A stretch of DNA of 64,000 nt from a virus: the IMG/VR virus record IMGVR_UViG_3300032285_002723, positions 24,645 to 88,644 of that record; one strand, 5' to 3'. Positions within the stretch are counted from its first letter, which is position 1; each line of letters begins with the position of its first letter. Under the pieces are notes generated by a model. The model worked only from the letters and a program-made list of their open reading frames with translations. It was not told the origin of the DNA and did no database searches. Shown one piece after another: positions 6,048-64,000 of the stretch. The translations under genes were made by a program, and so were the position numbers.

Positions 6048-8138
6048 ATGAGTATTTTTAAGAAGACTATCAAGTATTCTAAACCTTTGAGGGATTTGGA
6101 TAACAAGATAAAAAATCTTGATGAGGAACTTGGACAAACAGGAGTCATTGGTGAGCAAGATGACACTGAAGTTTTGTGTGTTCAAGAGTCTTCCGTAGAA
6201 AAATTACCAAAAATATATGATAGACTAGAAGTTCAAAAAGAAAAAGAAACTTTATATAATTGGAGAGAATCTTTTATTGTAGAAGAAACTAATGATAAAC
6301 CTGTAGTAATAGATGAGACTTATCATAAAACTGTAGGTAGAGTTGAAAGATATATTTCTGAAAGTAATAAAGAACTGATTGAAATAAGAAACCAAGTATT
6401 TCAAGAAATTTCCGAATCTACATTATTAAATCTTCCAGAAATCAAATGCAAGATTGAGAAAGTATTGGAAATTTATGATCAAATACAGGAAGGTTTGTTA
6501 AATGAACCACCCTCAACAAAAAATTCTGATCCTCTTACTCCATTAGATCAAAATTTTGTAACAATAGAAGATTTAAATAAGCACTACAACTTATTTGTAA
6601 ATCGTATTCAAGAACAGATTGCCACTATTGGTGGTGGTGGTGAATATCGTTTTCAATATCTTGATGGTATTGTAGGTATTCAAACAAATTCTGCTTCTTA
6701 TAATGGTAAGTATTTGCAGTGGAACTCTGCAACCAATAAAGCAGAGTTTGTGACAGTAAGTAGTGGTGGTAGTAATGGTATATCAACTTATGCATCCATA
6801 GCAGGTATAGCAACTTATGCTACATCAGCAGGTATAGCAACTTATGCAACCTCTAGTGGTATATCAACTTATGCTACATCAGCAGGTATAGCAACTTATG
6901 CAACCTCTAGTGGTATAGCAACTTATGCAACCTCTAGTGGTATATCAACTTATGCAACAAAAGCAGGAGTATCAACAAATGTAATAGGTGGTATTGCATC
7001 AGTAACTTCATTATCAGTTTCCGGTATTACAACTTTAGGTGTAGTTACTTCTGTAACTTCAATAAATTTTGCTAGTGGTGGATTATTGGGTGATCCATAC
7101 CAAGATGGAGGATTTGGATTAAAATCTGCCGGTGGTCAATATAAATATGCTACTATTGCTAGTAACAATCTACAGCAATATCTTCAAGTTGATGACAATA
7201 TAATTTATATTGGAACAGGTTATGCATCAACTACTGGTAATTACAATTGGGTATTTAAAAAAGATGGTAGTACAGAATTTCCTAATAGTTTAATTCTAGC
7301 TCCTGGCAGCCAAAGCATTACTTTACAGAGTGATCAATATTCCCAGTTGATGTGGATGAACGCGGATCAGACAGTAGGGCCTAATAAGTTTACCAACGTA
7401 GATTTTTTTGTCGCATCTGGATATGCTACTTTAGACATAGGTTATCGTGATGGTGCTAGTGATCAACAATTCAAATCTTGGCTTTGGAATATAGATGGAT
7501 TACAATTCCCAGATCTCACATTACAAACTACTGCATTTACTGGTTATGCAGATAATGCAGGCATAGCAACCTATGCTGCATCAAGTGGTATAGCAACTTA
7601 TGCTTCTTCTAGTGGGTTATCCACAAGTTCCACAACTGCTGGTTATGCAACTACCTCTGGAATTTCTACAACATCACAAGGTCTTACAGGAACTCCAAAT
7701 ATTTCTGTAGGTGTTATAACTGCAACAGACTATCGTATTCAATCTGTTGCAGAAAAAACTACTCTTGTTGGTCTGAATACTGCTAATTTAGTTTATAATA
7801 CTGGTGGTGGTAATATTGCAATCTGTACCAATCCAAGTGGTGATATTACACTGAATGTAACTGGTATTCCTACTGCTAGTTCCTTTGATAATTACTCACT
7901 TGCATTTAGTGTGATTGTAACAAATACGGGAACAGCAAGAAGTTGTACTGCAATTACATTAAATGGAGTATCAAGAACAATCAAATGGTTTGGTGGTTCT
8001 CTTGCATCGGCAATTTCTGGAGTTACCACATCAAATGGATATGATGTTTATAGTTTCACCGGAATTAATACCGTAGGTTCGGCAAGTACAACCGCAAATT
8101 ATATTGTGCTTGGTAGTGTGAATGGAAGTTATAGATAA
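6048..8138 (+). CDS. Fibre-like structural protein with 9-residue repeats
   Basis: 696 residues. The first 190 or so are charged and largely helical (coiled-coil-like). A GGGGEYRFQYLDGIVGIQTN segment, typical of cyanophage fibres, follows. Seven tandem GI(A/S)TYATS(S/A) repeats (residues about 244-306) come next, with two further copies near residue 505. The rest is beta-rich with Gly/Ser/Thr, ending in a compact domain (VNGSYR). This architecture, an N-terminal helical anchor, a beta shaft and a C-terminal tip, suggests a trimeric tail-associated fibre. Its stop overlaps the LamG gene start by one base (TAATG). Confidence 0.65.
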   Translation: MSIFKKTIKYSKPLRDLDNKIKNLDEELGQTGVIGEQDDTEVLCVQESSVEKLPKIYDRLEVQKEKETLYNWRESFIVEETNDKPVVIDETYHKTVGRVERYISESNKELIEIRNQVFQEISESTLLNLPEIKCKIEKVLEIYDQIQEGLLNEPPSTKNSDPLTPLDQNFVTIEDLNKHYNLFVNRIQEQIATIGGGGEYRFQYLDGIVGIQTNSASYNGKYLQWNSATNKAEFVTVSSGGSNGISTYASIAGIATYATSAGIATYATSSGISTYATSAGIATYATSSGIATYATSSGISTYATKAGVSTNVIGGIASVTSLSVSGITTLGVVTSVTSINFASGGLLGDPYQDGGFGLKSAGGQYKYATIASNNLQQYLQVDDNIIYIGTGYASTTGNYNWVFKKDGSTEFPNSLILAPGSQSITLQSDQYSQLMWMNADQTVGPNKFTNVDFFVASGYATLDIGYRDGASDQQFKSWLWNIDGLQFPDLTLQTTAFTGYADNAGIATYAASSGIATYASSSGLSTSSTTAGYATTSGISTTSQGLTGTPNISVGVITATDYRIQSVAEKTTLVGLNTANLVYNTGGGNIAICTNPSGDITLNVTGIPTASSFDNYSLAFSVIVTNTGTARSCTAITLNGVSRTIKWFGGSLASAISGVTTSNGYDVYSFTGINTVGSASTTANYIVLGSVNGSYR
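6777..6965 (+). repeat. Seven 27-base tandem repeats (GI(A/S)TYATSx)
   Basis: In-frame direct repeats of 27 bases (ggtatagcaacttatgcaac-type) inside the fibre gene. Two more diverged copies start near 7557. Confidence 0.9.
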
Positions 8139-8917: not shown

Positions 8918-9063
8918 GATGTTAAGGAATCAAGACATTTCTTAATCTTCTGTAACCGAGATCATCAGAAGTAAAGCATCTCTCATACCTGTACTGGAGG
9001 GTGGTACTGGAATATCTGTACTTGTTCAATTCCCCTTGGACTCATACTTACCCTTTTACGAAA

Positions 9064-10345
9064 ATGACTGCTACTATTGCTTCACGCAATTCTACTAACC
9101 TCTGGAACGATTTCTGTTCCTGGGTTACTTCTACTAATAACCGTCTTTATGTCGGTTGGTTCGGCGTTCTGATGATCCCAACGTTGCTTGCCGCAACGAT
9201 TTGTTTCATCATCGCATTTGTCGGTGCTCCTCCTGTGGACATTGACGGCATTCGTGAACCTGTCTCTGGTTCATTAATGTACGGCAACAACATCATCTCT
9301 GGTGCTGTTGTGCCTTCTTCTAATGCTATTGGACTTCACTTCTATCCTATCTGGGAAGCAGCAAGTTTGGACGAATGGTTGTACAATGGTGGACCTTTCC
9401 AACTTGTTGTCTTTCACTTCCTGATTGGTATCTACTGCTATATGGGTCGTGAATGGGAACTCTCCTATCGTTTAGGTATGCGTCCTTGGATTATGGTTGC
9501 TTACAGCGCACCTGTTGCTGCTGCATCTGCTGTATTCCTGGTCTATCCTTTCGGTCAAGGTTCTTTCTCTGATGCTATGCCTTTGGGCATTTCTGGTACT
9601 TTTAACTATATGCTTGTCTTCCAGGCAGAACATAATATTCTGATGCACCCTTTTCATATGCTTGGAGTTGCTGGTGTCTTCGGTGGTTCATTGTTCTCTG
9701 CGATGCACGGAAGTTTAGTTACTTCTTCATTGGTTCGTGAAACTACTGAAACTGAATCACAGAATTATGGTTATAAGTTCGGACAAGAAGAAGAGACATA
9801 CAACATCGTTGCTGCTCACGGTTATTTCGGTCGCCTTATTTTCCAATATGCGTCATTTAATAACTCACGTTCACTGCACTTCTTTTTAGCAGCGTGGCCG
9901 GTAGTCGGTATTTGGTTTGCTGCTCTTGGTGTTTCTACCATGGCTTTTAATCTCAACGGACTGAATTTTAACCAGAGTATTCTGGATAATCAGAATCATG
10001 TTATCAAAACTTGGGCAGATATTTTAAATTCTGCTGGACTCGGATTTGAGGTAATGCACGAGCGTTTTGTATAAGCATGGCGCTCTTTAAATCGGATGAA
10101 TTGCTGGAACTCTCTCGTAGACAATCAGCAGCCAAGCCCCAGACGCTTCTGGGGAAGGTTCAGAGACTAGGTGGTTTCTCAAGCGTGAGATGTAATACAC
10201 CATTAGCGTCCGACACCAGAAATGGTGATGATATAGTCCTTGCCCCTGGCGACAGTGGGATTTCAAGAATGCACACAACTTTCCTTTGGATTTAGCATCA
10301 GTTGAAGCAACTCCTGTTGCCTTGACTGCTCCAACCATCGGTTGA
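9064..10345 (+). CDS. psbA: Photosystem II D1 protein, split by an intron (join 9064..10065, 10268..10345)
   Basis: D1 reaction-centre protein, which holds the primary donor, pheophytin, QB and most Mn4Ca ligands in the thylakoid. Start chosen at 9064 ([10 protein letters not shown]), the normal D1 start. Exon 1 gives residues 1-334 ending MHER; exon 2 gives [10 protein letters not shown] plus a 15-residue extension ending TIG. The total is 359 residues, the usual cyanobacterial length. In standard numbering the join lies between R334 and N335, so H332/E333 are in exon 1 and H337/D342/A344 in exon 2. Read through unspliced, the frame stops at 10072-10074 and the protein would lose essential ligands. 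It probably replaces fast-turning-over host D1 during infection. Confidence 0.96.
10066..10267 (+). ncRNA. Group I intron in psbA
   Basis: 202 bases. The 5' exon ends GAGCGT, which pairs perfectly with the internal guide GCGCTC (10080-10085), with the U-G wobble exactly at the splice site. The intron ends in G (10267). GGTTCAGAGACTA (about 10158-10169) is the conserved group I core, and GACTA (10165-10169) pairs with TAGTC (10234-10238) as P7. It has no endonuclease ORF of its own. Group I introns in cyanophage psbA are known (for example phage S-PM2). Confidence 0.93.
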
Positions 10346-10412: not shown

Positions 10413-10841
10413 ATGACTAAACTCTACTCCGAACTGTATAGAACTTGTATGACTTGTAGTAAGGAAAAACTTGCTACGGATTTCTATGTGAGAAATAAAG
10501 TTACTATGGTTCGGCACTCCATATGTAAAGAATGTGATAAGCAAAGAGTGAGAAATAGGCACGAAGAAAATCCAGAACGCACAAAAAATAATGACTTAAA
10601 AAGACTTTATGGAATTACTCTTGACGAACATACTCAAATGTTTGATGACCAAAAAGGTGTTTGTGCAATTTGTAAAGGTGAAGGTGATGGTAAATGGAAG
10701 AAACTTTGTGTAGACCACGACCATAAGACAGGAAAAGTTCGTCAGTTGCTTTGTAGAAATTGTAATATGGTATTGGGTCAGGTAGGGGACAACACAAATC
10801 TTCTGGAAGAAATGATTAAATACCTACAAAAGCATCAATAA
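10413..10841 (+). CDS. Endonuclease VII-like (HNH) free-standing homing endonuclease
   Basis: 142 residues. Two zinc-binding Cys pairs (CMTC near residues 11-14 and CKEC near 37-40) and CAIC/CRNC (about 87-90 and 111-114) flank LCVDHDHKTGKVRQLLC, the catalytic beta-beta-alpha-metal segment of phage recombination endonuclease VII. It sits directly downstream of intron-containing psbA. Cyanophage S-PM2 has a free-standing homing endonuclease, F-CphI, that targets the psbA intron insertion site. This gene may do the same job here, but equivalence is inferred from position. Confidence 0.8.
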   Translation: MTKLYSELYRTCMTCSKEKLATDFYVRNKVTMVRHSICKECDKQRVRNRHEENPERTKNNDLKRLYGITLDEHTQMFDDQKGVCAICKGEGDGKWKKLCVDHDHKTGKVRQLLCRNCNMVLGQVGDNTNLLEEMIKYLQKHQ

Positions 10842-31352: not shown

Positions 31353-31562
31353 ATGGAACTACAAGAATTAATTAACGACATATGTGAAGAATTAGAAAAT
31401 TCTTCAATGAATAGTCAGAGAAGAAGATACTTACAAAATTATTTGCAAGAAATTTTAGAATATCAAAAAAATAATCCACATAATAAAGAAGTTCCAACTT
31501 CATTGGAATTGTTTTGCGATTTAAACCCAAACGCATTGGAGTGTAGAATTTACGATGATTGA
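31353..31562 (+). CDS. CP12-like mini-protein inside the baseplate operon
   Basis: 69 residues. N-terminal helix (MELQELINDICEELENSSMN), then SQRRRYLQNYLQEILEYQKN. The C-terminus LELFCDLNPNALECRIYDD has the CP12 signature: C-x2-NP-x3-EC-R-x-Y-D with the two Cys nine positions apart. In cyanobacteria and chloroplasts this end of CP12 docks on GAPDH in the dark complex with phosphoribulokinase. CP12 is a known cyanophage auxiliary gene, but it is normally not placed among tail genes. The N-terminal Cys pair of plant CP12 is absent here. It overlaps gp5 by 8 bases. Confidence 0.65.
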   Translation: MELQELINDICEELENSSMNSQRRRYLQNYLQEILEYQKNNPHNKEVPTSLELFCDLNPNALECRIYDD

Positions 31563-33798
31563 AGAGTCTTTATTAAAATCCAATTATATCGGTAAAGATG
31601 GATTTAATTGGTGGATTGGTCAAGTTGCACATTCAAATTATTGGAAAAAGGCAGCAGATTATTTCAATGGCGATTGGAATTATCGTTGCAAAGTAAGAAT
31701 TATTGGATATCATCCTTTTTCTGGATCAGTTTTAAGTGATAATGATTTGCCTTGGGCACAGGTGATGATAGATCCTGCTTTTGGTAGTGGACAAGGTGGA
31801 ACAGGAAAAACATTAGATCTAAAAGGTGGAGAAACTTGTTTTGGTTTTTTTATGGATGGTGATGACGCACAACAACCAGTAGTTATTGGTCTTCTTCATA
31901 GAAGTGATGGAGTTAAGAATTTAATTAGTGAGGAGAATGTACAAGCAGATTTAAGTTCAGGATTTAAACCATTTACTGGACATCCTGGAAATAAAGTTAA
32001 GGCAACACAATTAGAAGCAAGGAAAAGTAAAGAAATAGATCAAACAAATCCAACAGCATCCACAACACAAGAAACACCTCCAATACCTCTTTCTTTTTCT
32101 AATGCGGCAAATCTTAATTTGGGTGTAGGTGCTGGAATTACAAATGCTAATGTTTCTTGGGATAGTGCAAAAGGATATACATCAGGGATAAAAGGATTTA
32201 ATCTTAACTTAAATTTGGCAGGAGATAGATTAGTTTGTCAAGCACAATCAACTTATGGTATAGAAAAAAAATGTGATAGAACTTATATTAGTGCAAATGG
32301 TTGTCAAAATAATTTAATCGGACAAATCACACAAGGACTTCAAGATTTTATTGCATTTACAAATGGATTAGATAAGTATTTGAGCACTTATATTGATCCA
32401 GTATTAAATGAAATTGTAGATATTGGTCAATCAATTGCGAATTGTGCTAGACAAATTGGTGGAATTATAAAATTAATTATTAATAATTTAAGAAATACAA
32501 TTTTTAAATGTATTGTTTGGGCATTTAGAAAACTTGTAGGATTGGTTGTTCCTCCTCCACAACAGACAATTGTTTTGGAAGCGATGAAAAAAATATTGGA
32601 TAGTATTTTTTGTATTTTAGAAAAACTTCCTGCGGGAATTATTGATTATACCAAAGGTCTTCTTGGTGATTTAGCAGCAAATAATATCAATTCACCAGTT
32701 TGTGCTGTGGAGCAATGGACTGCTGGAATTTTAGCAAAAGTAATGGATAGTATGGAAAGCTCACTTTCTACTATTATGTCTGGAATTGGTTGGTTGACTG
32801 GTGGACTTTCAACTGTTTCTGGAATTTTAAATCAAGCAAGTTCATTGGCGTCACAAATTTTTAGTTTTCTTGAATGCACTGGTCTTGCTTGTAAAACTCC
32901 AAGTGTATGGGCATCTAAATTTGGTCCAAGTGAAAAAGAAGCAGACGATTGGCAAAAAATGGTTGGTAGTGTGAATGTATTTAAAGGTGTAAGTGATGGG
33001 TTAGGTTCATTGGAAGAAGCAATGTATCAAACACCACTTTATGGTGGAATAACTGGAGAATTTAATAGTATATTTGATCAATGTAATCAAAAAGTTCAAA
33101 ATCCAACAAATCAAGAAGACATCGTTCCATTACCAGTAGGATCAAAATATTCAACTTGTGTTCCACCAATTGTTAGAATTTTTGGAGATGGTATGGGTGC
33201 GAGAGCAATACCAATTGTAGATTCTACTGGATCTATTTTTTCAGTAGAAATTATTGACGGTGGATTTGGATATACAAGTCCCCCAACAATTTCCATTGTT
33301 GATAACAGTGGTTGTGGTTCTGGAGCACAAGCACAAAGTATTATTGATCAAGATGCTGGTAATATTACATCAATTTATATGACTAGTGTTGGGTTTGGAT
33401 ATGCACCTGGAAATTATACAAATATTGGTATTGACACCGCAGGAATTGGAACCAATAGAAATATTTCAAATACTGGAAAAGTTTCTGGTTGTATTCAAAA
33501 TATAATTGTGACTGCACCTGGATATGGTTATACAACAGGAGACCGAATAACTGATGGGACAAATACTTATGTTCCTATAGTAACTCCTGGTTCTGGTGCA
33601 ATTATAGGAATTGAACCATTAAGAACTCCAGTTTGCGGATTTGATAAGGCACCAACATTAACTATAAATACCAGATCAGGAGTTGCTGCAGATCTTGTTC
33701 CAATTATGAAATTTACTCCAACATATACTACAGTTGATCAAAATAAAGTAAATCAAGCAGCAATTTCAGGTATTACATCAGTGGTGGATTGTATATGA
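31555..33798 (+). CDS. gp5: gp5-like hub/spike protein lacking a lysozyme domain
   Basis: 747 residues. GKDGFNWWIGQVAH, WNYRCKVRIIGYHPFSG and DLPWAQVMIDPAFG, followed by GFFMDGDDAQQPVVIGLLH, are the gp5 N-terminal OB-fold. Long helical central region (about 260-460). C-terminal half has repeats of the form GFGYTSPPTISIVDNSGCGS (GxGYxxPP) seen in phage spikes. No T4-lysozyme catalytic set is seen, so the wall-cutting job seems moved to the two preceding proteins. Overlaps the next gene as ATGA. Confidence 0.72.
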   Translation: MIEESLLKSNYIGKDGFNWWIGQVAHSNYWKKAADYFNGDWNYRCKVRIIGYHPFSGSVLSDNDLPWAQVMIDPAFGSGQGGTGKTLDLKGGETCFGFFMDGDDAQQPVVIGLLHRSDGVKNLISEENVQADLSSGFKPFTGHPGNKVKATQLEARKSKEIDQTNPTASTTQETPPIPLSFSNAANLNLGVGAGITNANVSWDSAKGYTSGIKGFNLNLNLAGDRLVCQAQSTYGIEKKCDRTYISANGCQNNLIGQITQGLQDFIAFTNGLDKYLSTYIDPVLNEIVDIGQSIANCARQIGGIIKLIINNLRNTIFKCIVWAFRKLVGLVVPPPQQTIVLEAMKKILDSIFCILEKLPAGIIDYTKGLLGDLAANNINSPVCAVEQWTAGILAKVMDSMESSLSTIMSGIGWLTGGLSTVSGILNQASSLASQIFSFLECTGLACKTPSVWASKFGPSEKEADDWQKMVGSVNVFKGVSDGLGSLEEAMYQTPLYGGITGEFNSIFDQCNQKVQNPTNQEDIVPLPVGSKYSTCVPPIVRIFGDGMGARAIPIVDSTGSIFSVEIIDGGFGYTSPPTISIVDNSGCGSGAQAQSIIDQDAGNITSIYMTSVGFGYAPGNYTNIGIDTAGIGTNRNISNTGKVSGCIQNIIVTAPGYGYTTGDRITDGTNTYVPIVTPGSGAIIGIEPLRTPVCGFDKAPTLTINTRSGVAADLVPIMKFTPTYTTVDQNKVNQAAISGITSVVDCI

Positions 33799-36911: not shown

Positions 36912-36961
36912 ATTAAGGTGTGAAGGAAGATGCGCTGGAAAGGAGAAATCCTTTCCGCCTT

Positions 36962-37045
36962 GGGCGTGTGGTGAAATTGGTATCCACAACAAACTTAAAA
37001 TTTGTCGGCCGTAAGGCCATGCGAGTTCAAGTCTCGCCATGCCCA
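36962..37045 (+). tRNA. tRNA-Leu (anticodon UAA)
   Basis: 84 bases. Acceptor GGGCGTG pairs with CATGCCC (one G-U), D arm present, anticodon loop CTTAAAA giving UAA, long variable arm (CGGCCGTAAGGCCAT) as in class II tRNA, T arm GCGAG-TTCAAGT-CTCGC. CCA is only partly encoded (one A). It reads UUA, a codon frequent in this AT-rich genome and rarer in a GC-richer Synechococcus host. Confidence 0.93.
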
Positions 37046-37050
37046 TTAAA

Positions 37051-51690: not shown

Positions 51691-54123
51691 ATGGCATTAA
51701 AGAATCCTAAACTATTTGGTCTTAATGTATTAAATTATTTTTCTGATATAGAAAATAAAAACCAAGCACTTACTGCTTTGAATTTGCCTCCATTGGATTT
51801 GGATGTTATTCGTGGAACTTCAAATGCTGGTGCCACAAGAAATGATTTTATAAGTTTTTCAAGATTAACTCAACCAATATATAAAGTTCTTGATCGTTAT
51901 CAATCCGATTCTGCAACTTATACTGATATTCTTTTTAATAAAGCAGGAACAAATTCAACTCTTTTTGGTAATTTAAATATTAATGGTGGGTTAAGTGGTA
52001 ATGCAATTCGTTATCGTTATGTGGACGGAACAGGATCTTCTGCAGTAGTAAAAATTGCTGATATATCAACATCAAGAGTAAGTGCTTGGAGTTCAAGTGC
52101 TAATCCAGTAGTTGACACATCACCAATTTCTTATGGCGCAAGAGTTGGTATTATTACTGGAGGTTCTTTGCAGTTTGGAACACAATCACCTTCAGTATCT
52201 GGTCCTAGACTTCAAACAACTATTACTCCACAAGCAAAAGAGTTTGCTTCAGAATTTCCAACTCATAAAATTAATTGCACAATAGGTGGACAGACAGTAA
52301 GTCTATATGCAATGAAAGGTATTCCTCTTGTATTTACTGGATTCTTTAGAAATTTAGATGCAAATATAACCTTAACAGGTTTAATTGGTGGAACTTCCGC
52401 AAGTTGGAAAATTGTTAATACATCAAACGCAAACGATTTTACAACATATTCAAATCAAGGCGGAACTAGTTCTACAATTAATTACATATCTTCTATATCA
52501 AGAGAAAGATATATTCAATTTTATTATAATCCAGATAACATTTCCTCTATTACAATCAACTCTGCAAATATTTCTACTCTTCCAGTTACAAAATTAGCAA
52601 ATGCTACATTATTAAATTTTTCATATAATAATATAACAAATTTTCCAGATTTAACCACATTTTCTCCTAATGTTCAATCCATATATTTTGTTAAAAATCC
52701 ATTTTATTTAAGTGATACTGTAGCAGAAAGAAAGTTAAATTCAAATATTATAAACAAAATTCCTACAACGGTTAGAAATTTTGTTATGGGTGGAACATTT
52801 TATGGTTCTATTACGCAAAATATTATTGCAAATCGTTTTACAACTTTAACAACATTAAATTTATCTACAGGTGGTGGAGCATATTTCTATCCAGATGATA
52901 GCGATAATACTTGTGCTTTGCCTAATGTTCCAAATAGTTGCGAGACTTATTTGGTAGATAACAATGACTTTCGTGCTTTTGGTACAACAAATACTGGTGC
53001 AGGTCAGTATAATGTAAGAGATTTAACAAACTTAATTACATTAAGTTTAAGTGGTAATTATTATCTTGAGTATAATCAAGAGAATTTAATATCATCCAGC
53101 AATAATAAAATACAATTTATAAATTTATACAACACTGCAATAAGATGTCCAGACTTAAACGGAAAGCAATCACTTACTACATTTTACGGTCATTATTGTA
53201 GAAATATTGGAAGTATTTTTACTTCTGGTAATACTTATAAGTTTGATGGTTGTGGATCATTGAGCACTTTATATTTTTATAATTCACCATTGACTGGTGC
53301 AATGCCAAAATTTACAAATGCAAGTTTGAGTTATTTGGAACTTCGTTATACTTCTTTAACTGGAGGAAATCCAAATGGTGATAATACTTATGTAATTCCA
53401 GAAAGAACCTTTGAGCAGTCTCCAAATCTTCAATATATGTTACTGCAGTCTGGAAATCTTCTTACCAGTCCAATACATCCAAATGCATTTACATATACTC
53501 CAAATCTTTATTATCTTTGGTATATTTCTTATGGAAGAACTGGAGGATCAATACCAACTTTGGCATCTTGTTCCAACTTAACGTGGATTATTTTTCATTA
53601 TAATAATTTTACTGGAAATTTTCCAAATCTTGCGTCAAATAGAAATATTTACTATGTGGATTCTAGTTATAATTCTTTATCTGGAAATATTCCGGGATTT
53701 AAGAATCTTTCTTCTTTAAGTTATTTGTTTTTATACAACAATCAATTTACTGGTATAACCAAATTCACAAACTTACCAAGTTTGGCATATTTTTATGCAC
53801 ACAATAATCAATTATCTGGAGAAATTCCAGATTTTACTGATTGTCCAAATATGTATTATTTGATTTTATTTAATAATAAATTTACAACTTACAAATCTGG
53901 TGCATTCTCTTCCTTATATCGTTTGAGGTATTTGGATTTGGCAAATAATTTGTTAAGTCAACAAGCAATTAATTCTATAATTTCTGATTTGTATACAAAT
54001 TATAATTCAATTAATCGTAGTGGAGTTACAATTAATCTTCGCGGAAATGCAGCTCCAAGTGGAACATCACTTGATTACATAGATATTTTAAGATCCAAAG
54101 GTTGGTCAATAGCACTAGATTAA
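51691..54123 (+). CDS. Fibre with plant-type leucine-rich repeats
   Basis: 810 residues. N-terminal module (LFGLNVLNYFSDIENKNQAL, LDLDVIRG) shared with the next two proteins, then a beta region. From about residue 300 there are repeated LRR units such as LSYLFLYNNQFTG and AYFYAHNNQLSGEIPDFTDC, closest to the LxxLxLxxNxLSGxIP plant type. LRR domains bind proteins or sugars; a host-receptor role is inferred. Confidence 0.75.
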   Translation: MALKNPKLFGLNVLNYFSDIENKNQALTALNLPPLDLDVIRGTSNAGATRNDFISFSRLTQPIYKVLDRYQSDSATYTDILFNKAGTNSTLFGNLNINGGLSGNAIRYRYVDGTGSSAVVKIADISTSRVSAWSSSANPVVDTSPISYGARVGIITGGSLQFGTQSPSVSGPRLQTTITPQAKEFASEFPTHKINCTIGGQTVSLYAMKGIPLVFTGFFRNLDANITLTGLIGGTSASWKIVNTSNANDFTTYSNQGGTSSTINYISSISRERYIQFYYNPDNISSITINSANISTLPVTKLANATLLNFSYNNITNFPDLTTFSPNVQSIYFVKNPFYLSDTVAERKLNSNIINKIPTTVRNFVMGGTFYGSITQNIIANRFTTLTTLNLSTGGGAYFYPDDSDNTCALPNVPNSCETYLVDNNDFRAFGTTNTGAGQYNVRDLTNLITLSLSGNYYLEYNQENLISSSNNKIQFINLYNTAIRCPDLNGKQSLTTFYGHYCRNIGSIFTSGNTYKFDGCGSLSTLYFYNSPLTGAMPKFTNASLSYLELRYTSLTGGNPNGDNTYVIPERTFEQSPNLQYMLLQSGNLLTSPIHPNAFTYTPNLYYLWYISYGRTGGSIPTLASCSNLTWIIFHYNNFTGNFPNLASNRNIYYVDSSYNSLSGNIPGFKNLSSLSYLFLYNNQFTGITKFTNLPSLAYFYAHNNQLSGEIPDFTDCPNMYYLILFNNKFTTYKSGAFSSLYRLRYLDLANNLLSQQAINSIISDLYTNYNSINRSGVTINLRGNAAPSGTSLDYIDILRSKGWSIALD

Positions 54124-54124
54124 A

Positions 54125-55048
54125 ATGGTAAAACAAAATCAAGGGTTTAGAAAAGATTTAAATCTACAAGAAACTACTAATGAAACACAGGCTTTAAATA
54201 ATCTTGGTGGTGCTGGAATTTCAGAAGATTTGCGTATTTTACAAAATAATTTAAGAAATACTTCAACTCTATCATTCAATACTACTGTTGGTGCAGCAAT
54301 ATCAAGTGGATACTTTTATTTTGGTTCAATTAGTGAATTTGTATTTACAAATGATGATGTTGTTGGCGTAAAAACTGACATTACAGTTGGTGTTGGTGTT
54401 ACGTTGTATAAAAATAATACTTATTATATTTGTAATTCAAATACTGAAGATAAATTTAAACTATCAACAAGTCCATCTTCTGTTGGTGTAAATACAATTA
54501 CTGTCTCTTCTGTATCATCAAGTTTTGATTTTATTCGCAAAAATCCAGTATATAAAGAAAATATTTTAAATCTGATAAAACCAAATATTCAAGATGATGG
54601 ATTTAATTATCTTGGACAATCAATCAATAGTGCTTTTGGTGGTGTAGCAGCAACAAATGAAACTGCCAAATACCTAATAACAAAAAAATATAAATCAAAC
54701 GAAAATACAGTATCACCAAATGATATAAATGTTGAAGGATCTATTAAAATAAATGATCCAGAAAACTTTAATTCTGGGTTTTCACAATTATCTGATACAA
54801 GATCTCCTGGTATTTTTATTGGTGATACTCGTGCATTTTCAAGTGATAATAATCCTTGGACACAAGTTGGAACTGCCTTATCAACTTTAAGTGATTCAGT
54901 TTCAATTGGAGAACTTTATTTTGCAGATAATATATCAATCACTGGAATTAGCACAGAGTCTGCATCTAGTGTTGCAGTTACGACATACACTCACAAATTA
55001 CCAGTTGTAATTAATGGTGAAACTTATTATATTTTATTAGGCGCATAG
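54125..55048 (+). CDS. Structural protein with the shared N-terminal module
   Basis: 307 residues. Opening FRKDLNLQETTNETQALNNL resembles the modules at the front of its two neighbours. Remainder is beta-rich with GxVGVxxNTITVSSVSSSF. Its stop overlaps the stop of the convergent minus-strand gene by 12 bases. Possible short fibre or connector. Confidence 0.55.
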   Translation: MVKQNQGFRKDLNLQETTNETQALNNLGGAGISEDLRILQNNLRNTSTLSFNTTVGAAISSGYFYFGSISEFVFTNDDVVGVKTDITVGVGVTLYKNNTYYICNSNTEDKFKLSTSPSSVGVNTITVSSVSSSFDFIRKNPVYKENILNLIKPNIQDDGFNYLGQSINSAFGGVAATNETAKYLITKKYKSNENTVSPNDINVEGSIKINDPENFNSGFSQLSDTRSPGIFIGDTRAFSSDNNPWTQVGTALSTLSDSVSIGELYFADNISITGISTESASSVAVTTYTHKLPVVINGETYYILLGA

Positions 55049-57474: not shown

Positions 57475-60294
57475 ATGGCAACTCCACTCAAGATTAAAAG
57501 GTCTGCTGTATCAAATAAAAGACCTACAATTTCAGATTTACAATTAGGGGAGTTAGCCCTAAACACATACGACGGTTATCTATTTGCAAAAAGAGACACT
57601 GGTGGTGTCGGAATAGGTACAACTGTTACACTTCTCACTCCTTGGAGAGAGAATTTTGGCGCACAGTCAATTTATTATATTAATTCAGTAGGAATTGGAA
57701 CCACCAATCCACAAACAAAACTAGAGATTGATGGAGTATTGGGATTTACTCCAAATTCTAATGGATATTCAAACATAAGAATTGGAACCACAGTAACTGG
57801 TTATTCAATAACTAATACTAGTTCTGCAAATAAAAATATTTTTATTGGTGATTTAGCTGGCGGAGCATTATCTACTGGATTGGAAAATGTATTCATAGGA
57901 ATGGGTGCTGGTGCTGGAAATATTAATGGGTCTTATAATGTCTATTTGGGATCTGGTGCTGGTGTATATGCAGATTATCAAGGAAGTAAAAATGTTTATA
58001 TTGGTTACAGTGTAGTATCAAGTGGTATTGGTTCTGAAAATATTGTAATTGGTTACAATAGAAGTCTTCCAACATCAGGTAATAATCAACTTGTAATTGG
58101 TTCTGGAAGTTCTGATTGGATTGTCGGTAATAGTTCTTATAATGTTGGTATTGGAACCATAAATCCAACATCAAAACTTACAGTAACTGGTGATGTATTA
58201 GTTTCTGGTGTTGTTACTGCAACTACATTTATTGGAAATTTAACTGGAACTGCAACAACAGCATCAAGTGTTATAGTAGATTCTGTAGGACTTGGAACTC
58301 ACACATATGGTGATTATGTAAAAAATATTACCGGAACTTCAAATCAAATTAGCGTAAGTGCAACTTCTGGAGAAGGTTCTACACCAACATTAAGTATTCC
58401 AAATCAATTTACTATTCCACAAGATGCAACAGTTACTAGAGATCTTCAAGTTAATCGTAACTTAAATGTAACTGGAAATATTACAATTGGTGGAACATCA
58501 GCATTTATTAATGCCCAAGAACTAAAAATTGCTGACCCAGACATTGTTCTTGGATTTAGAACAGATGGAAGTAATAATGATGTTTCTAATGATACTACAG
58601 CAAATCACGGTGGTATTGCTATTGCATCTACGGAAGGAAATCCGTTAGTTACAATTTACAATCCTGGTATTGGCGAATCTACACTTCCCACATATAAGAA
58701 AATTATGTGGTTTAGGGCAGGCACTTTTACTGGACTTGGAACTGATGCTTGGATAATTAACTATGCTGTTGGTATTGGATCTACTCAATTCCCATCAGGA
58801 ACTCGTCTTGCAGCAGGTAATGTTCAATTCACTCAAAGTGATTTAGCAGTTGTAAGAAATATTAATGCTTCTGGTATTGTAACTGCTGCAGGACAATTCC
58901 AATCCACACAAGCAAACAACACCGCAAATGGTGGAGGACAAATTTACCTGAATGGAGCAACAGGAAATAGAATTGATTTTAACCAAAATGGTGTTGCTGC
59001 CCCTACAACTACAACAAGAAGTGTAGGAACCAAGATCGTCTTATATCCTAATGTTGGTGCTTCTGGTGTTGATTTTGCATTTGGTATTGACGCTAATACT
59101 TTATGGTCTTCTGTTTATGATTATGGAAACCAATTCAAATGGTATGCAGGAACCACAAACATTGCAACTCTCTTTGGAACTGGAGAACTTGTATTAGGAA
59201 CCACATCAAAAACAGGTACTGCATCACAACCACTTCAAGTTACTGGTAGTGCTTATGTTTCTGGTACTCTTGGTTTAGGTGTTGTAAGTCCGACATCAAA
59301 ATTAGTCATCGGTGGATTTGGTGTTAATAATACATTGAGATTTGCTGATGGTGCGTTTATAGGTGATATTGGATATGTTGACAGTTCTGGAAACTTAACA
59401 ATTCAAAATTGGTCTGATATTATATTTAAAACTGGAGATCCAACTAGAACAGAAAAATTAAGAGTTAATAGTTCTGGCAACCTTCTTATAAACACTACAA
59501 CAGAAACAGGAACAGCATCCCAACCACTTCAAGTTAATGGTGGTGCTTATGTTTCTGGCAATCTTGGTTTAGGTGTTGTAAGTCCATCTTATGTTATAGA
59601 TGCTGGTAATGCACTCGCCAATAAATCAATTCGTATTGGTGGTATTATTGGAGGAAATGGTGGCAATTCTTATGGTATCATTGGATATAATGCAAAACCA
59701 AGTGGAGGAAATACTTGGTCTTATGATTATAGTGATAGTGCTTCTTGGATACAATTTTTAGATGGTACTCACATATTCTATCGTGGTGTATCTGGTACTG
59801 CTGGTAATGTCATTACTCCATTAGAATCTGGTAGATTTGATGGTTCTGGAAATCTCCTTATAGGAACCTCATCAGCAACAGGAACAGCAATACAACCACT
59901 ACAAGTATCTGGTGGTGCTTATATAAGTAGAAATACTGGTATAGGAATCACAAATCCAACATCAAAATTACACGTTGTTGGTAATGCTTATATTACTGGT
60001 GTAACAACGTCTACTGATTTTGATTCACTTTCTGATATAAATCTCAAAACAAATATCAATAAAATTCCTGATCCACTTGAGAAGGTAAAGCAAATTCGTG
60101 GAGTTACATTTGATTGGAAAGAAACTCAAAGATCTTCTGCTGGTGTAATTGCACAAGAAATTGAAAAGGTATTACCAGAACTAGTTCACGGTGATGAAAC
60201 AAAGACCGTTAATTATAATGGTCTTATAGGTCTTCTCATTGAGTGCGTCAAGAAACAGCAAGAAGAGATTGATGAATTGAAAAAGAGGTTATAA
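57475..60294 (+). CDS. Tail fibre with C-terminal S74 self-cleaving chaperone
   Basis: 939 residues. Front IKRSAVSNKRPTISDLQLGE then LALNTYDGYLFAKRD, as in cyanophage fibres. Early IGxxAG repeats, then three copies of a TGTASQPLQVxGxAYVSG module (about 580, 680 and 805). From about 850: LSDINLKTNINKIPDPLEKV, GVIAQEIEKVLPELV and VNYNGLIGLLIE, then a final coiled coil. This is the S74 intramolecular chaperone, which trims itself (at the Ser of LSD) after trimer folding. Confidence 0.85.
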   Translation: MATPLKIKRSAVSNKRPTISDLQLGELALNTYDGYLFAKRDTGGVGIGTTVTLLTPWRENFGAQSIYYINSVGIGTTNPQTKLEIDGVLGFTPNSNGYSNIRIGTTVTGYSITNTSSANKNIFIGDLAGGALSTGLENVFIGMGAGAGNINGSYNVYLGSGAGVYADYQGSKNVYIGYSVVSSGIGSENIVIGYNRSLPTSGNNQLVIGSGSSDWIVGNSSYNVGIGTINPTSKLTVTGDVLVSGVVTATTFIGNLTGTATTASSVIVDSVGLGTHTYGDYVKNITGTSNQISVSATSGEGSTPTLSIPNQFTIPQDATVTRDLQVNRNLNVTGNITIGGTSAFINAQELKIADPDIVLGFRTDGSNNDVSNDTTANHGGIAIASTEGNPLVTIYNPGIGESTLPTYKKIMWFRAGTFTGLGTDAWIINYAVGIGSTQFPSGTRLAAGNVQFTQSDLAVVRNINASGIVTAAGQFQSTQANNTANGGGQIYLNGATGNRIDFNQNGVAAPTTTTRSVGTKIVLYPNVGASGVDFAFGIDANTLWSSVYDYGNQFKWYAGTTNIATLFGTGELVLGTTSKTGTASQPLQVTGSAYVSGTLGLGVVSPTSKLVIGGFGVNNTLRFADGAFIGDIGYVDSSGNLTIQNWSDIIFKTGDPTRTEKLRVNSSGNLLINTTTETGTASQPLQVNGGAYVSGNLGLGVVSPSYVIDAGNALANKSIRIGGIIGGNGGNSYGIIGYNAKPSGGNTWSYDYSDSASWIQFLDGTHIFYRGVSGTAGNVITPLESGRFDGSGNLLIGTSSATGTAIQPLQVSGGAYISRNTGIGITNPTSKLHVVGNAYITGVTTSTDFDSLSDINLKTNINKIPDPLEKVKQIRGVTFDWKETQRSSAGVIAQEIEKVLPELVHGDETKTVNYNGLIGLLIECVKKQQEEIDELKKRL

Positions 60295-60345: not shown

Positions 60346-63300
60346 ATGGCAATTAAAATCATAGGATCTACTATTATAGATGATAGTAGAAATATAGTTA
60401 ATGCTGGTATAGCAACTGTAACTTCCGTAAGCATCGGTAATACGGAAGTTGTTAGTTCTTCTAGGCAACTTAAAAACATTGCGTCCCTTGATGCCACAAC
60501 TACTGCAACAATTGAAGCAGCAATTGTAAATGCACCTAATACTTTTACTGATCTTCAGATTACTGGTGTCTCTACATTCACCAACGGACCAGTATTAATT
60601 GGAACTGGAACCTCAACAGGAACTGCAGCACAAAGACTTCAGGTATCTGGTGGTGCTTATGTAAGTGGAAATACTGGTATAGGAACCACAAATCCATTAC
60701 AAAATCTTCACGTTCTTGGAAATCTTTTAGTTGCCGCTGGATCTTCCACAGGACAGCATATTACTCAAAAAGCATATGAACTGAATAGTGGAACATTAAG
60801 TTGGGAAGGTAGCGCAGGTCAGTTATTCTCCATTACTAATAATTTAACATCTGGAAGTATTTTTAGTGTTAATGATGTTTCTGGTATTCCAAGTATTGAT
60901 GTAAATGCTAATGGAACCGTTAGTGTAGTTGCTTATGGTGGTTCTTTGGGTATTGGAACTACAAATCCAACAGCACAATTACAAACCACTGCTGATGTTA
61001 AAATCAATGGACTCACAGTTGGCAAAGGAACTGGAAGTGTAATTAACAACACTACACTTGGTTATCAGGCACTTTTCAGTAATACTACTGGTGCTAACAA
61101 CACTGCTAATGGATATTATGCACTCTTCTCCAACACCACTGGATCTAACAATACTGCTACTGGACGAAGTGCTCTTCAATCCAACACCACTGGAACACAA
61201 AACACTGCTAATGGTTATAAAGCACTAACAGCAAACACTACTGGAAACTATAATACTGCTAATGGATACAAAGCACTCCAAAGCAACACCACTGCATTCT
61301 ACAATACTGCTACTGGAGTAAATTCACTCTTCTCCAACACCACTGGAACTCAAAACACTGCTAATGGATTAAATTCACTCTACTACAACACCACTGGATA
61401 TCAAAATACTGCTATTGGAGTTGCTGCACTTCAATCCAATACCACTGGAAGTGCAAACACTGCTAATGGTTATTATGCACTCTTTTCAAACACCACTGGA
61501 GGATATAATACTGCTAATGGATATAAAGCACTAGTATCCAACACCACTGGAAACGCAAATACCGCTAATGGAAACAGTTCTCTCCGTTTTAATACCACTG
61601 GATCCAGCAATACTGCCAATGGACAAGCTGCCCTCTTATCTAACACCACTGGAGTCTATAACACTGCTACTGGAGTAAATGCACTCTACTCCAACACCAC
61701 TGGAAATGCCAACACTGCTACTGGGCAACAAGCACTTGAATCCAACACCACTGGAAACTACAACACTGCTAATGGATATAAAGCACTAGTATCCAACACC
61801 ACTGGATACAACAATACTGCTACTGGAAGTTATGCACTTCAATATAATACTATTGGATATCAAAATGTTGCTAATGGAACTTATGCACTTTTCGCTAACA
61901 CCACTGGAACCAACAATACTGCTACTGGATACGGGGCACTCAATACCAACACCACTGGAGTAAACAACACTGCTACTGGATACCAAGCACTCCTCTACAA
62001 CACCACTGGAATCAGCAACACTGCTACTGGATTCCAAGCACTCTATTCCAACACCACTGGAAACTACAACACTGCTACTGGATATGGAGCACTTGTCTCC
62101 AACACCACTGGATCTAGCAATACTGCTACTGGATATCAAGCACTCACCTCCAACACCACTGGATCCAACAACACTGCTACTGGATATGGAGCACTTGTCT
62201 CCAACACCACTGGATTCTACAACACTGCTAATGGATACAGAGCACTCTACACCAACACCACTGGATATTATAACACTGCTAATGGGCAAAGTGCCCTCCA
62301 ATCTAACACTACTGGAATCAGCAACACTGCTACTGGACTAAATTCCCTTTACAATAACACCACTGGATCCAACAACACTGCTACTGGATATGCAGCACTC
62401 CAAGCAAACACCACTGGACAAAACAACACTGCTACTGGAAGTGGAGCACTCTTCTTCAACACCACTGGATCTAGCAACACTGCTAATGGAATAAATGCAC
62501 TCTTCTCCAACACCACTGGAGTCAACAATACTGCTAATGGTTATCAATCACTCTATTCCAACACTACTGGATCTAGCAACACTGCTAATGGTTATAAGGC
62601 ATTATACGCTAACACCACTGGAGCACAAAACGTTGCTATAGGACGTGAAGCACTTGCAAATAATACAATAGGAACTAATAATACTTCTACTGGTTATCAA
62701 TCACTTCAAGCAAATACTACTGGAGCATATAATACTGCTACAGGAATGTATGCACTTAAATCAAATACTACTGGATCCAACAATACTGCTGCTGGTTATT
62801 GTGCTCTTCAAACCAACACCACTGGAGTTCAAAACACTGCTAATGGAACAGGTGCTCTTCAATATAATATCACTGGAACCAACAACACTGCTACTGGATA
62901 TAATGCACTCAATTCCAACACTACTGCAAACAACAACACTGCTACTGGATATTCAGCACTTTTATCCAACACCACTGGATCTAGCAACACTGCTAATGGA
63001 TATCAAGCACTCTATTCCAATACCACTGGATCCAGTAACACTGCTACTGGATATGAAGCACTCCGCTCAAATACAACTGGATTCAACAATACTGCTACTG
63101 GGTGGAGAGCACTCCGCTCAAATACCACTGGATACAACAACACTGCTAATGGATATCAAGTACTTCGTTCCAACACCACTGGAAACTACAACACTGCTAA
63201 TGGATTCCAAGCACTTTATTCTAACACCACTGGAACCTCCAACACTGCTAATGGTTATAAAGCACTCTACTCCAACACCACTGGATACAATAACACTGCT

Positions 63301-64000
63301 ACTGGAGTAAATGCACTTATATACAACACCATTGGATATAATAATACTGCTACTGGATTAAATGCACTTCAAGCAAACACTTCTGGCAATTTTAATACTG
63401 CTAATGGATTAAATGCACTCTACGCCAACACCACTGGATCCAACAACACTGCTAATGGATACAGAGCACTTGTCTTTAATGTCACTGGATACAACAACAT
63501 TGCTACTGGAGCAAGCGCACTTGAATCTAACACCATTGGAATCCAAAACACTGCTACTGGATCAGAAGCACTCTACTCCAACACTACTGGATCTAGCAAC
63601 ACCGCCAATGGATTCAGATCACTCGGTGCTAACACCATCGGAAGCAACAACACTGCTACTGGTTATTACGCACTTCTCTACAACACCACTGGAATCTACA
63701 ACACTGCTACTGGAGCAAGTGCCCTTCAAAACAACACCACTGCAAGTGGAAACACTGCTATTGGTCAGCAAGCACTCACATCCAACACCACTGGATACAG
63801 TAATACTGCTAATGGTTATAGAGCACTCCAAGCAAACACTACTGGATCCTTCAATACTGCTACTGGAGTAAAATCACTCTTCTCCAACACTACTGGAATC
63901 CACAACACTGCTAATGGATATCTAGCACTTTTCTCCAATACCACTGGAATCAACAACATTGCTAATGGTTATAAAGCACTCTACTCCAACACCACTGGAA
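60346..64000 (+). CDS. Giant repeat fibre, continues past window
   Basis: At least 1218 residues; no stop before the window end. Starts MAIKIIGSTIIDDSRNIVNA. The module GTGTSTGTAAQRLQVSGGAY (about residue 88) is shared with the S74 fibre. From residue 239 on it is a run of 17-residue repeats, consensus G-Y-x-A-L-x-S-N-T-T-G-x-x-N-T-A-(T/N), which recall the beta-roll heads of trimeric adhesins (YadA/Hep_Hag type). Likely a very long trimeric tail fibre; an S74 end may lie outside the window. Confidence 0.75.
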   Translation, partial: MAIKIIGSTIIDDSRNIVNAGIATVTSVSIGNTEVVSSSRQLKNIASLDATTTATIEAAIVNAPNTFTDLQITGVSTFTNGPVLIGTGTSTGTAAQRLQVSGGAYVSGNTGIGTTNPLQNLHVLGNLLVAAGSSTGQHITQKAYELNSGTLSWEGSAGQLFSITNNLTSGSIFSVNDVSGIPSIDVNANGTVSVVAYGGSLGIGTTNPTAQLQTTADVKINGLTVGKGTGSVINNTTLGYQALFSNTTGANNTANGYYALFSNTTGSNNTATGRSALQSNTTGTQNTANGYKALTANTTGNYNTANGYKALQSNTTAFYNTATGVNSLFSNTTGTQNTANGLNSLYYNTTGYQNTAIGVAALQSNTTGSANTANGYYALFSNTTGGYNTANGYKALVSNTTGNANTANGNSSLRFNTTGSSNTANGQAALLSNTTGVYNTATGVNALYSNTTGNANTATGQQALESNTTGNYNTANGYKALVSNTTGYNNTATGSYALQYNTIGYQNVANGTYALFANTTGTNNTATGYGALNTNTTGVNNTATGYQALLYNTTGISNTATGFQALYSNTTGNYNTATGYGALVSNTTGSSNTATGYQALTSNTTGSNNTATGYGALVSNTTGFYNTANGYRALYTNTTGYYNTANGQSALQSNTTGISNTATGLNSLYNNTTGSNNTATGYAALQANTTGQNNTATGSGALFFNTTGSSNTANGINALFSNTTGVNNTANGYQSLYSNTTGSSNTANGYKALYANTTGAQNVAIGREALANNTIGTNNTSTGYQSLQANTTGAYNTATGMYALKSNTTGSNNTAAGYCALQTNTTGVQNTANGTGALQYNITGTNNTATGYNALNSNTTANNNTATGYSALLSNTTGSSNTANGYQALYSNTTGSSNTATGYEALRSNTTGFNNTATGWRALRSNTTGYNNTANGYQVLRSNTTGNYNTANGFQALYSNTTGTSNTANGYKALYSNTTGYNNTATGVNALIYNTIGYNNTATGLNALQANTSGNFNTANGLNALYANTTGSNNTANGYRALVFNVTGYNNIATGASALESNTIGIQNTATGSEALYSNTTGSSNTANGFRSLGANTIGSNNTATGYYALLYNTTGIYNTATGASALQNNTTASGNTAIGQQALTSNTTGYSNTANGYRALQANTTGSFNTATGVKSLFSNTTGIHNTANGYLALFSNTTGINNIANGYKALYSNTTG
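61060..64000 (+). repeat. About 57 tandem 51-base coding repeats
   Basis: Period 51 bases (17 codons), for example GGA at 61111 and 61162. Core AACACCACTGGA-x-AACACTGCT is nearly constant; the four to six variable codons lie around the first third. Continues to the edge. Confidence 0.93.

Follow-up and report, generated by a model that had tools for sequence, protein, structure and literature searches.

The 64,000-nucleotide window analysed here is the terminal part of a virus record of 88,644 bases (G000:C1:24645-88644) and ends inside a fibre gene that carries at least 57 tandem copies of a 17-residue unit. We regard its product as an ordinary kind of protein, a phage fibre with a repeat shaft, in an unusually long and regular form, and we consider it fairly probable that it represents the recombination-prone shaft of a cyanophage tail or baseplate fibre, encoded by a coding minisatellite and bearing diverse, probably exposed positions.

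TRF identified one array at 61096-64000 (period 51, 57.0 copies, score 1688). In the protein register the first unit (NTTLGYQALFSNTTGAN) begins at 61048, and 57 complete 17-residue (51-bp) units with the consensus NTA[TN]GxxALxxNTTGxx follow one another on the + strand without a single insertion or deletion (61048-63954), with an incomplete 58th unit of 15 residues at the record end (63955-63999, + strand). Thus TRF and the in-register unit count both confirm the preliminary description of at least 57 repeats with a 51-base period running to the window edge, although the start had been placed at 61060 and is corrected here to 61048. This is not a chance pattern, and 57 units is a minimum because the record stops inside the array. 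N1, G5, L9 and N12 are invariant in all 57 units and T2, A3, T13, T14 and G15 are kept in 51-55 of them, while position 4 is either T or N (27 and 25 units) and positions 6, 7, 10, 11, 16 and 17 are free. The unit consensus does not contain the calcium-binding RTX nonapeptide motif GGxGxDxxx. DNA divergence between units of the window array is about 30%, and there is weak linkage between variable segments within a unit. Identity between adjacent units (lag 1, 0.713) does not clearly exceed that between distant ones (0.705, p 0.13), hence nothing points to very recent duplication of neighbouring units here.

The open-ended repeat gene occupies 60346-64000 on the + strand, its 1218 codons (60346-63999) running without a stop up to the record end. 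As the record itself stops where the window does, the gene is truncated by the end of the record and not by the window edge alone, and the C-terminus is lost; in an attempt to extend the contig, the exact last 72 bases of the record were absent from all viral contigs searched. The N-terminal part (residues 1-80; 60346-60585, + strand) is likely to be the virion attachment end; residues 20-77 share 60% identity with a protein of P-TIM68 whose annotation reads 'baseplate wedge tail fiber connector'. It is followed by a linker module, VLIGTGTSTGTAAQRLQVSGGAYVSGNTGIGTTNP (60592-60696, + strand), that recurs in the fibre gene upstream and in many fibres of cyanophages, and by a linker ending in DVKINGLTVGKGTGSVIN directly before the array (60748-61047, + strand). 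The adjoining upstream fibre gene (57475-60294, + strand) has the same linker modules and ends in a C-terminal Peptidase_S74 intramolecular chaperone domain (PF13884, E 4e-16). The repeat ORF matches the profile of PHROG 23837 (virion structural; E 1.1e-224, ten stretches), and further matches of the repeat region are to PHROG 6002 and 4636 (virion structural and tail spike families). Together these PHROG families, the S74-capped neighbour and the baseplate and tail genes also encoded in the window support the earlier identification as a fibre and, by homology, the assignment of the ORF as a putative fibre-type virion protein of a T4-like cyanophage. That the source phage is a T4-like cyanophage is clear from a gp5-like baseplate protein (31555-33798), which matches Synechococcus and Prochlorococcus myoviruses and for which all 450 matching records are from cyanophages except five labelled 'Marine', and from the presence of psbA and a PhotoRC-II RNA.

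The psbA gene lies at 9001-10074 (PF00124, E 7e-90) with the PhotoRC-II RNA in front (8933-9023). A group I intron (9995-10259) overlaps the 3' end of the psbA ORF, which therefore probably continues in a second exon, and an endonuclease-VII-like ORF (10413-10841) follows. Other features include a lone tRNA-Leu(TAA) in the tail gene region (36961-37046), an 810-aa protein in the fibre region (51691-54123) whose C-terminal part contains leucine-rich repeats (PF13855, E 3e-14), and 27-bp repeats in a fibre-like gene (6776-6967, GIATYA-type peptide) that are also present in the fibre linkers of two other viral loci, L087 and L046.

Ten units modelled by AlphaFold with 57 relatives gave pLDDT 67 and pTM 0.63. 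With 131 more diverse relatives, cellular ones included, whose 10-unit segments gave a gap-free alignment of 170 columns with the window, the best model reached pLDDT 76 and pTM 0.70 (the other four, pLDDT 58-64). Both runs predict a strand ladder with one turn per 17-residue repeat, the strand being residues 2-4 of every unit, with no residue below pLDDT 50, and not the disordered chain that would speak against a fold of this kind. Structural comparison with the PDB returned no significant match; the weak matches of the second model, none of them significant, are mostly left-handed beta-solenoids, including the trimeric autotransporter head of CbpF, a ryegrass ice-binding protein and several left-handed beta-helix enzymes among the best-ranked. 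A structural hit also led us to consider the chlorovirus glycoprotein repeat PF06598, which gave no match. The ladder and the weak left-handed matches make a beta-solenoid with one turn per repeat likely, at modest confidence, and a left-handed beta-roll plausible; the shaft would probably be trimeric. The proposed beta-roll of 17 residues per turn is thus compatible with both models but not proven by them.

It had also been suggested that the fibre would be much longer than typical. The T4 long tail fibre measures about 145 nm, and folded as a triple beta-spiral 57 units would give roughly 70-75 nm. At the rise of 4.8 Å per layer in the solved beta-roll of BpaC (PMC9543794), 57 turns amount to about 27 nm. 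On either fold, therefore, the claim fails for the visible part of the protein, and 57 copies or more were found in 10 of 54 complete viral ORFs, among which copy number ranges from 6 to 148 with a median of 24 (a sample chosen by similarity to the repeats of the window, and therefore biased to regular arrays). The longest such array seen here belongs to a viral ORF of 5,474 aa, which contains about 148 units in register and further ones.

Codon choice at the conserved positions of the window array is not random: Thr2 is ACT in 52 of 54 units, Thr14 ACT in 51 of 51, Thr13 ACC in 41 of 55, Ala3 GCT in 53 of 55 and Gly15 GGA in 52 of 54, none of these choices being predicted by genome codon usage. 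The position-specific codons differ between arrays (Thr 4-fold difference 0.37 within versus 0.63 between arrays), thus within an array the units either descend from recent common DNA or have been homogenised. One way in which this could have come about, which we think possible but somewhat unlikely, is that the array DNA was recently taken from another phage or bacterium, so that its uniformity is that of the source and not the product of recombination in place. Such uptake is consistent with the base composition of the array (GC 0.42, compared to 0.34 for the window) and with its asparagine codons (AAC 58%, compared to 13% in the other window genes). Furthermore, the arrays of L087 and L103 have almost the same 51-bp consensus as that of the window, and each of the three differs in codon usage from its own N-terminal flank in the same way, a foreign composition which suggests that this unit type moves between phages. 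However, no donor locus was found, the absence of the record's last 72 bp from the viral contigs searched included, and uptake alone does not explain the saturated positions described below. It would be compatible with diversification by recombination as a first step.

Within units, free and synonymous sites contrast with each other. In the window, 41-71% of unit pairs differ at the first and second codon bases of the six free positions, compared to 0-7% at the 4-fold sites of positions 2, 3, 14 and 15. Averaged over all anchor 4-fold sites, the ratio of free-site to synonymous difference is 3.3 for the window array; it lies above 1 in every one of 38 arrays, with a median of 1.5. Standard dN/dS is unreliable where evolution is concerted. 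Biased C-to-T change and codon preference may account for part of the contrast, and in the window the synonymous sites of N1, L9, N12 and T13 do vary, chiefly by C/T exchange. In many arrays the anchor synonymous sites are diverse as well, so that only homogeneous arrays show the contrast clearly. These observations bear on whether the array is a passive spacer that sets only the length and stiffness of the fibre, its variable outer residues being unconstrained and its copy number drifting without consequence. The range of copy number from 6 to 148, which does not correlate with array homogeneity, fits such a spacer, as do conserved positions that look purely structural. However, lack of constraint predicts similar rates at free and synonymous sites, and change on a merely passive surface should not be faster than at synonymous sites, hence we consider a passive role unlikely. 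The PRDM9 zinc-finger minisatellite has the same anatomy, and those who described it caution that concerted evolution makes the usual tests for selection unsafe (PMC3890296). We therefore treat selection on the diversity of the free positions as inferred.

Copy number, it had been suggested, could change, and among relatives it does. Two near-identical contigs, L087 and L170, with flanks 99.9% identical, contain 98 and 99 units respectively; 98 of 98 units agree and the sole array difference is one exact tandem copy. L087 and L103 have 98 and 62 units, with only two units in common and a length difference of 612 aa (36 x 17), while in DNA the 2,646 bases that precede the array are 97% identical, the 468 that follow it 95.5% and the 2.6 kb beyond those 98.7%. 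The arrays of L087 and L103 are entered via a linker (SVNGLTIGRGTGSVSS) of the same kind as the pre-array linker of the window and, as their consensus is also nearly identical, they are the best available relatives of the window array. In a further pair, L094 and L096, 8,926 bp of upstream DNA and the first 28.9 units are identical, after which the units are unrelated and the C-terminal part is 85% identical; this looks like a crossover inside the array, although L094 could be a chimera since the contig ends 777 bases after the array. Short irregular arrays of isolates are fixed: the SPO1-like repeat gene is 1,446 bp in 8 of 8 isolates measured, and S-CAM4-like isolates keep the same approximately six units. 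Turnover thus seems to go with arrays that are long and regular. A single copy number shared by all relatives would argue against turnover and is not what we observed.

Change in both copy number and content between near-identical relatives, as described for PRDM9, was therefore found among L087, L170 and L103, which lie outside the lineage of the window itself. The closest N-terminal relatives of the repeat protein (81%) are without the array altogether, and a search for close relatives with the neighbouring protein (54125-55048) recovered one distant locus only. On the repeat-fibre chain an S74 domain is present in L096 and absent in L087, whose array is the most similar to that of the window. 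Fibre-tip exchange outside the array was seen in the S-CAM4 isolate 1010NB23 and ACG-2014j/S-CAM4 0309CC44 (L342-L344), which are identical over most of the repeat gene while its C-terminal end and the next genes are wholly different.

The main caveat is that all close array comparisons are of metagenome assemblies, in which repeat arrays may be collapsed or misjoined. The differences between L087 and L103 and between L094 and L096 could in that case be mostly artefacts, the reads of several strains having been misjoined inside the repeats, and it is in keeping with this that the window contig stops within the array and L094 soon after its own. Against it, independent assemblies reproduce arrays (98 of 98 units in L087 and L170; identical arrays in L096, L097 and L100), the approximately 30% DNA difference between window units is resolvable by short reads, and the difference between L087 and L103 is exactly 36 units. 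We therefore judge assembly error to be a quite unlikely explanation. Targeted mutagenesis, for example by a diversity-generating retroelement, might account for variation limited to a few codons per unit, but is very improbable given that no reverse transcriptase (RVT_1) was found in the 88.6-kb record (itself a fragment) and that the variable codons are not limited to A-to-N changes.

We propose the following arrangement for a recombining fibre shaft. The N-terminus would attach to the virion, with the linker modules next, followed by a shaft of at least 57 beta turns of 17 residues, probably a trimeric left-handed beta-roll, which would carry a receptor-binding or chaperone domain past the record end. 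Recombination or slippage between the conserved 51-bp units could add, remove or replace whole units in frame, and the array may allow the attachment of different C-terminal ends. The roll would be maintained by the conserved N, T, G, A and L residues, while the six diverse positions of each unit probably form its exposed surface, and the shaft may take part in host recognition. More tentatively, and with some doubt, we suggest that long homogeneous 17-residue arrays could constitute a widespread system of fibre diversification, combining constant re-assortment of units through recombination within and between arrays, diversifying selection that saturates six surface positions of each turn, and a crossover zone for receptor-binding tips, with no reverse transcriptase or dedicated enzyme. 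Change in repeat number and content between near-constant flanks may let such viruses re-tool the fibre quickly. If turnover as fast as that suggested by L087 and L103 is real, it would offer viruses a simple means of re-tooling their surface without an enzyme, and would add to the explanations of the poor recruitment of fibre genes in marine viromes (metaviromic islands, PMC3909814).

The 17-residue unit itself is not new, and is common in phages (aquatic ones) and in Bacteroidota. It is present in at least 582 viral loci and in at least 470 loci of prokaryote genomes sampled one per species, mostly Bacteroidota among the best 79 listed, and comparison with predicted structures of viral proteins places it also in giant viruses, e.g. 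Bodo saltans virus. The repeat belongs to no Pfam or NCBIfam family (E <= 0.1 for the window protein; for Pfam also 58 members), PDB sequence searches with the protein and with a profile gave nothing credible, and we found neither a solved structure of the 17-residue repeat nor a paper on it.

Among known systems, the closest are the cyanophage structural and tail spike families PHROG 23837, 6002 and 4636, which have the same 17-residue units; the isolates of these families that we examined have short arrays (about six units in S-CAM4), compared to at least 57 in the window. The same repeat type occurs in tail fibre genes of isolates including pelagiphage HTVC112P (gp48), Methylophilales phage Venkman (gp55), Roseobacter phages and SPO1 (gp2.52), but the fibres of these marine and Bacillus phages have 4-19 matched units, often with loops inserted between them, whereas the window array is free of indels. 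Secreted Bacteroidota proteins share the consensus and spacing, most with an S74-like C-terminus, but they are cellular proteins with a signal-peptide-like N-terminus and not virion proteins. The left-handed parallel YadA-like/Hep_Hag beta-roll heads (BpaC) resemble the window array, as modelled, in their tandem short beta turns and Asn/Thr ladders, and long arrays in BpaC-type trimeric autotransporter heads formed by expansion (PMC9543794); however, their layers are of 14 residues (PMC9543794), compared to 17 in all window units. Pfam YadA/Hep_Hag gave no match to the window protein (E <= 0.1) and is not among the 25 most frequent families of the 58 members. The record of one phage homologue, SP8, carries a Hep_Hag annotation. 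Duplication within tail fibres as phages evolve was reportedly the subject of work by Tetart in 1996 on the T4 tail fibre adhesin. Phage EfV12-phi1 acquired an in-frame tandem duplication in a fibre gene during host coevolution (PMC6365445), although the segment duplicated there is 1.8 kb and the window units are of 51 bp and already number dozens. Finally, PRDM9 is unrelated in protein and function, and for the phage repeat we only infer selection, but by analogy its coding minisatellite (PMC3890296) offers a suggestive likeness, with homogeneous DNA units, a few hypervariable codons per unit and rapid turnover of the array.
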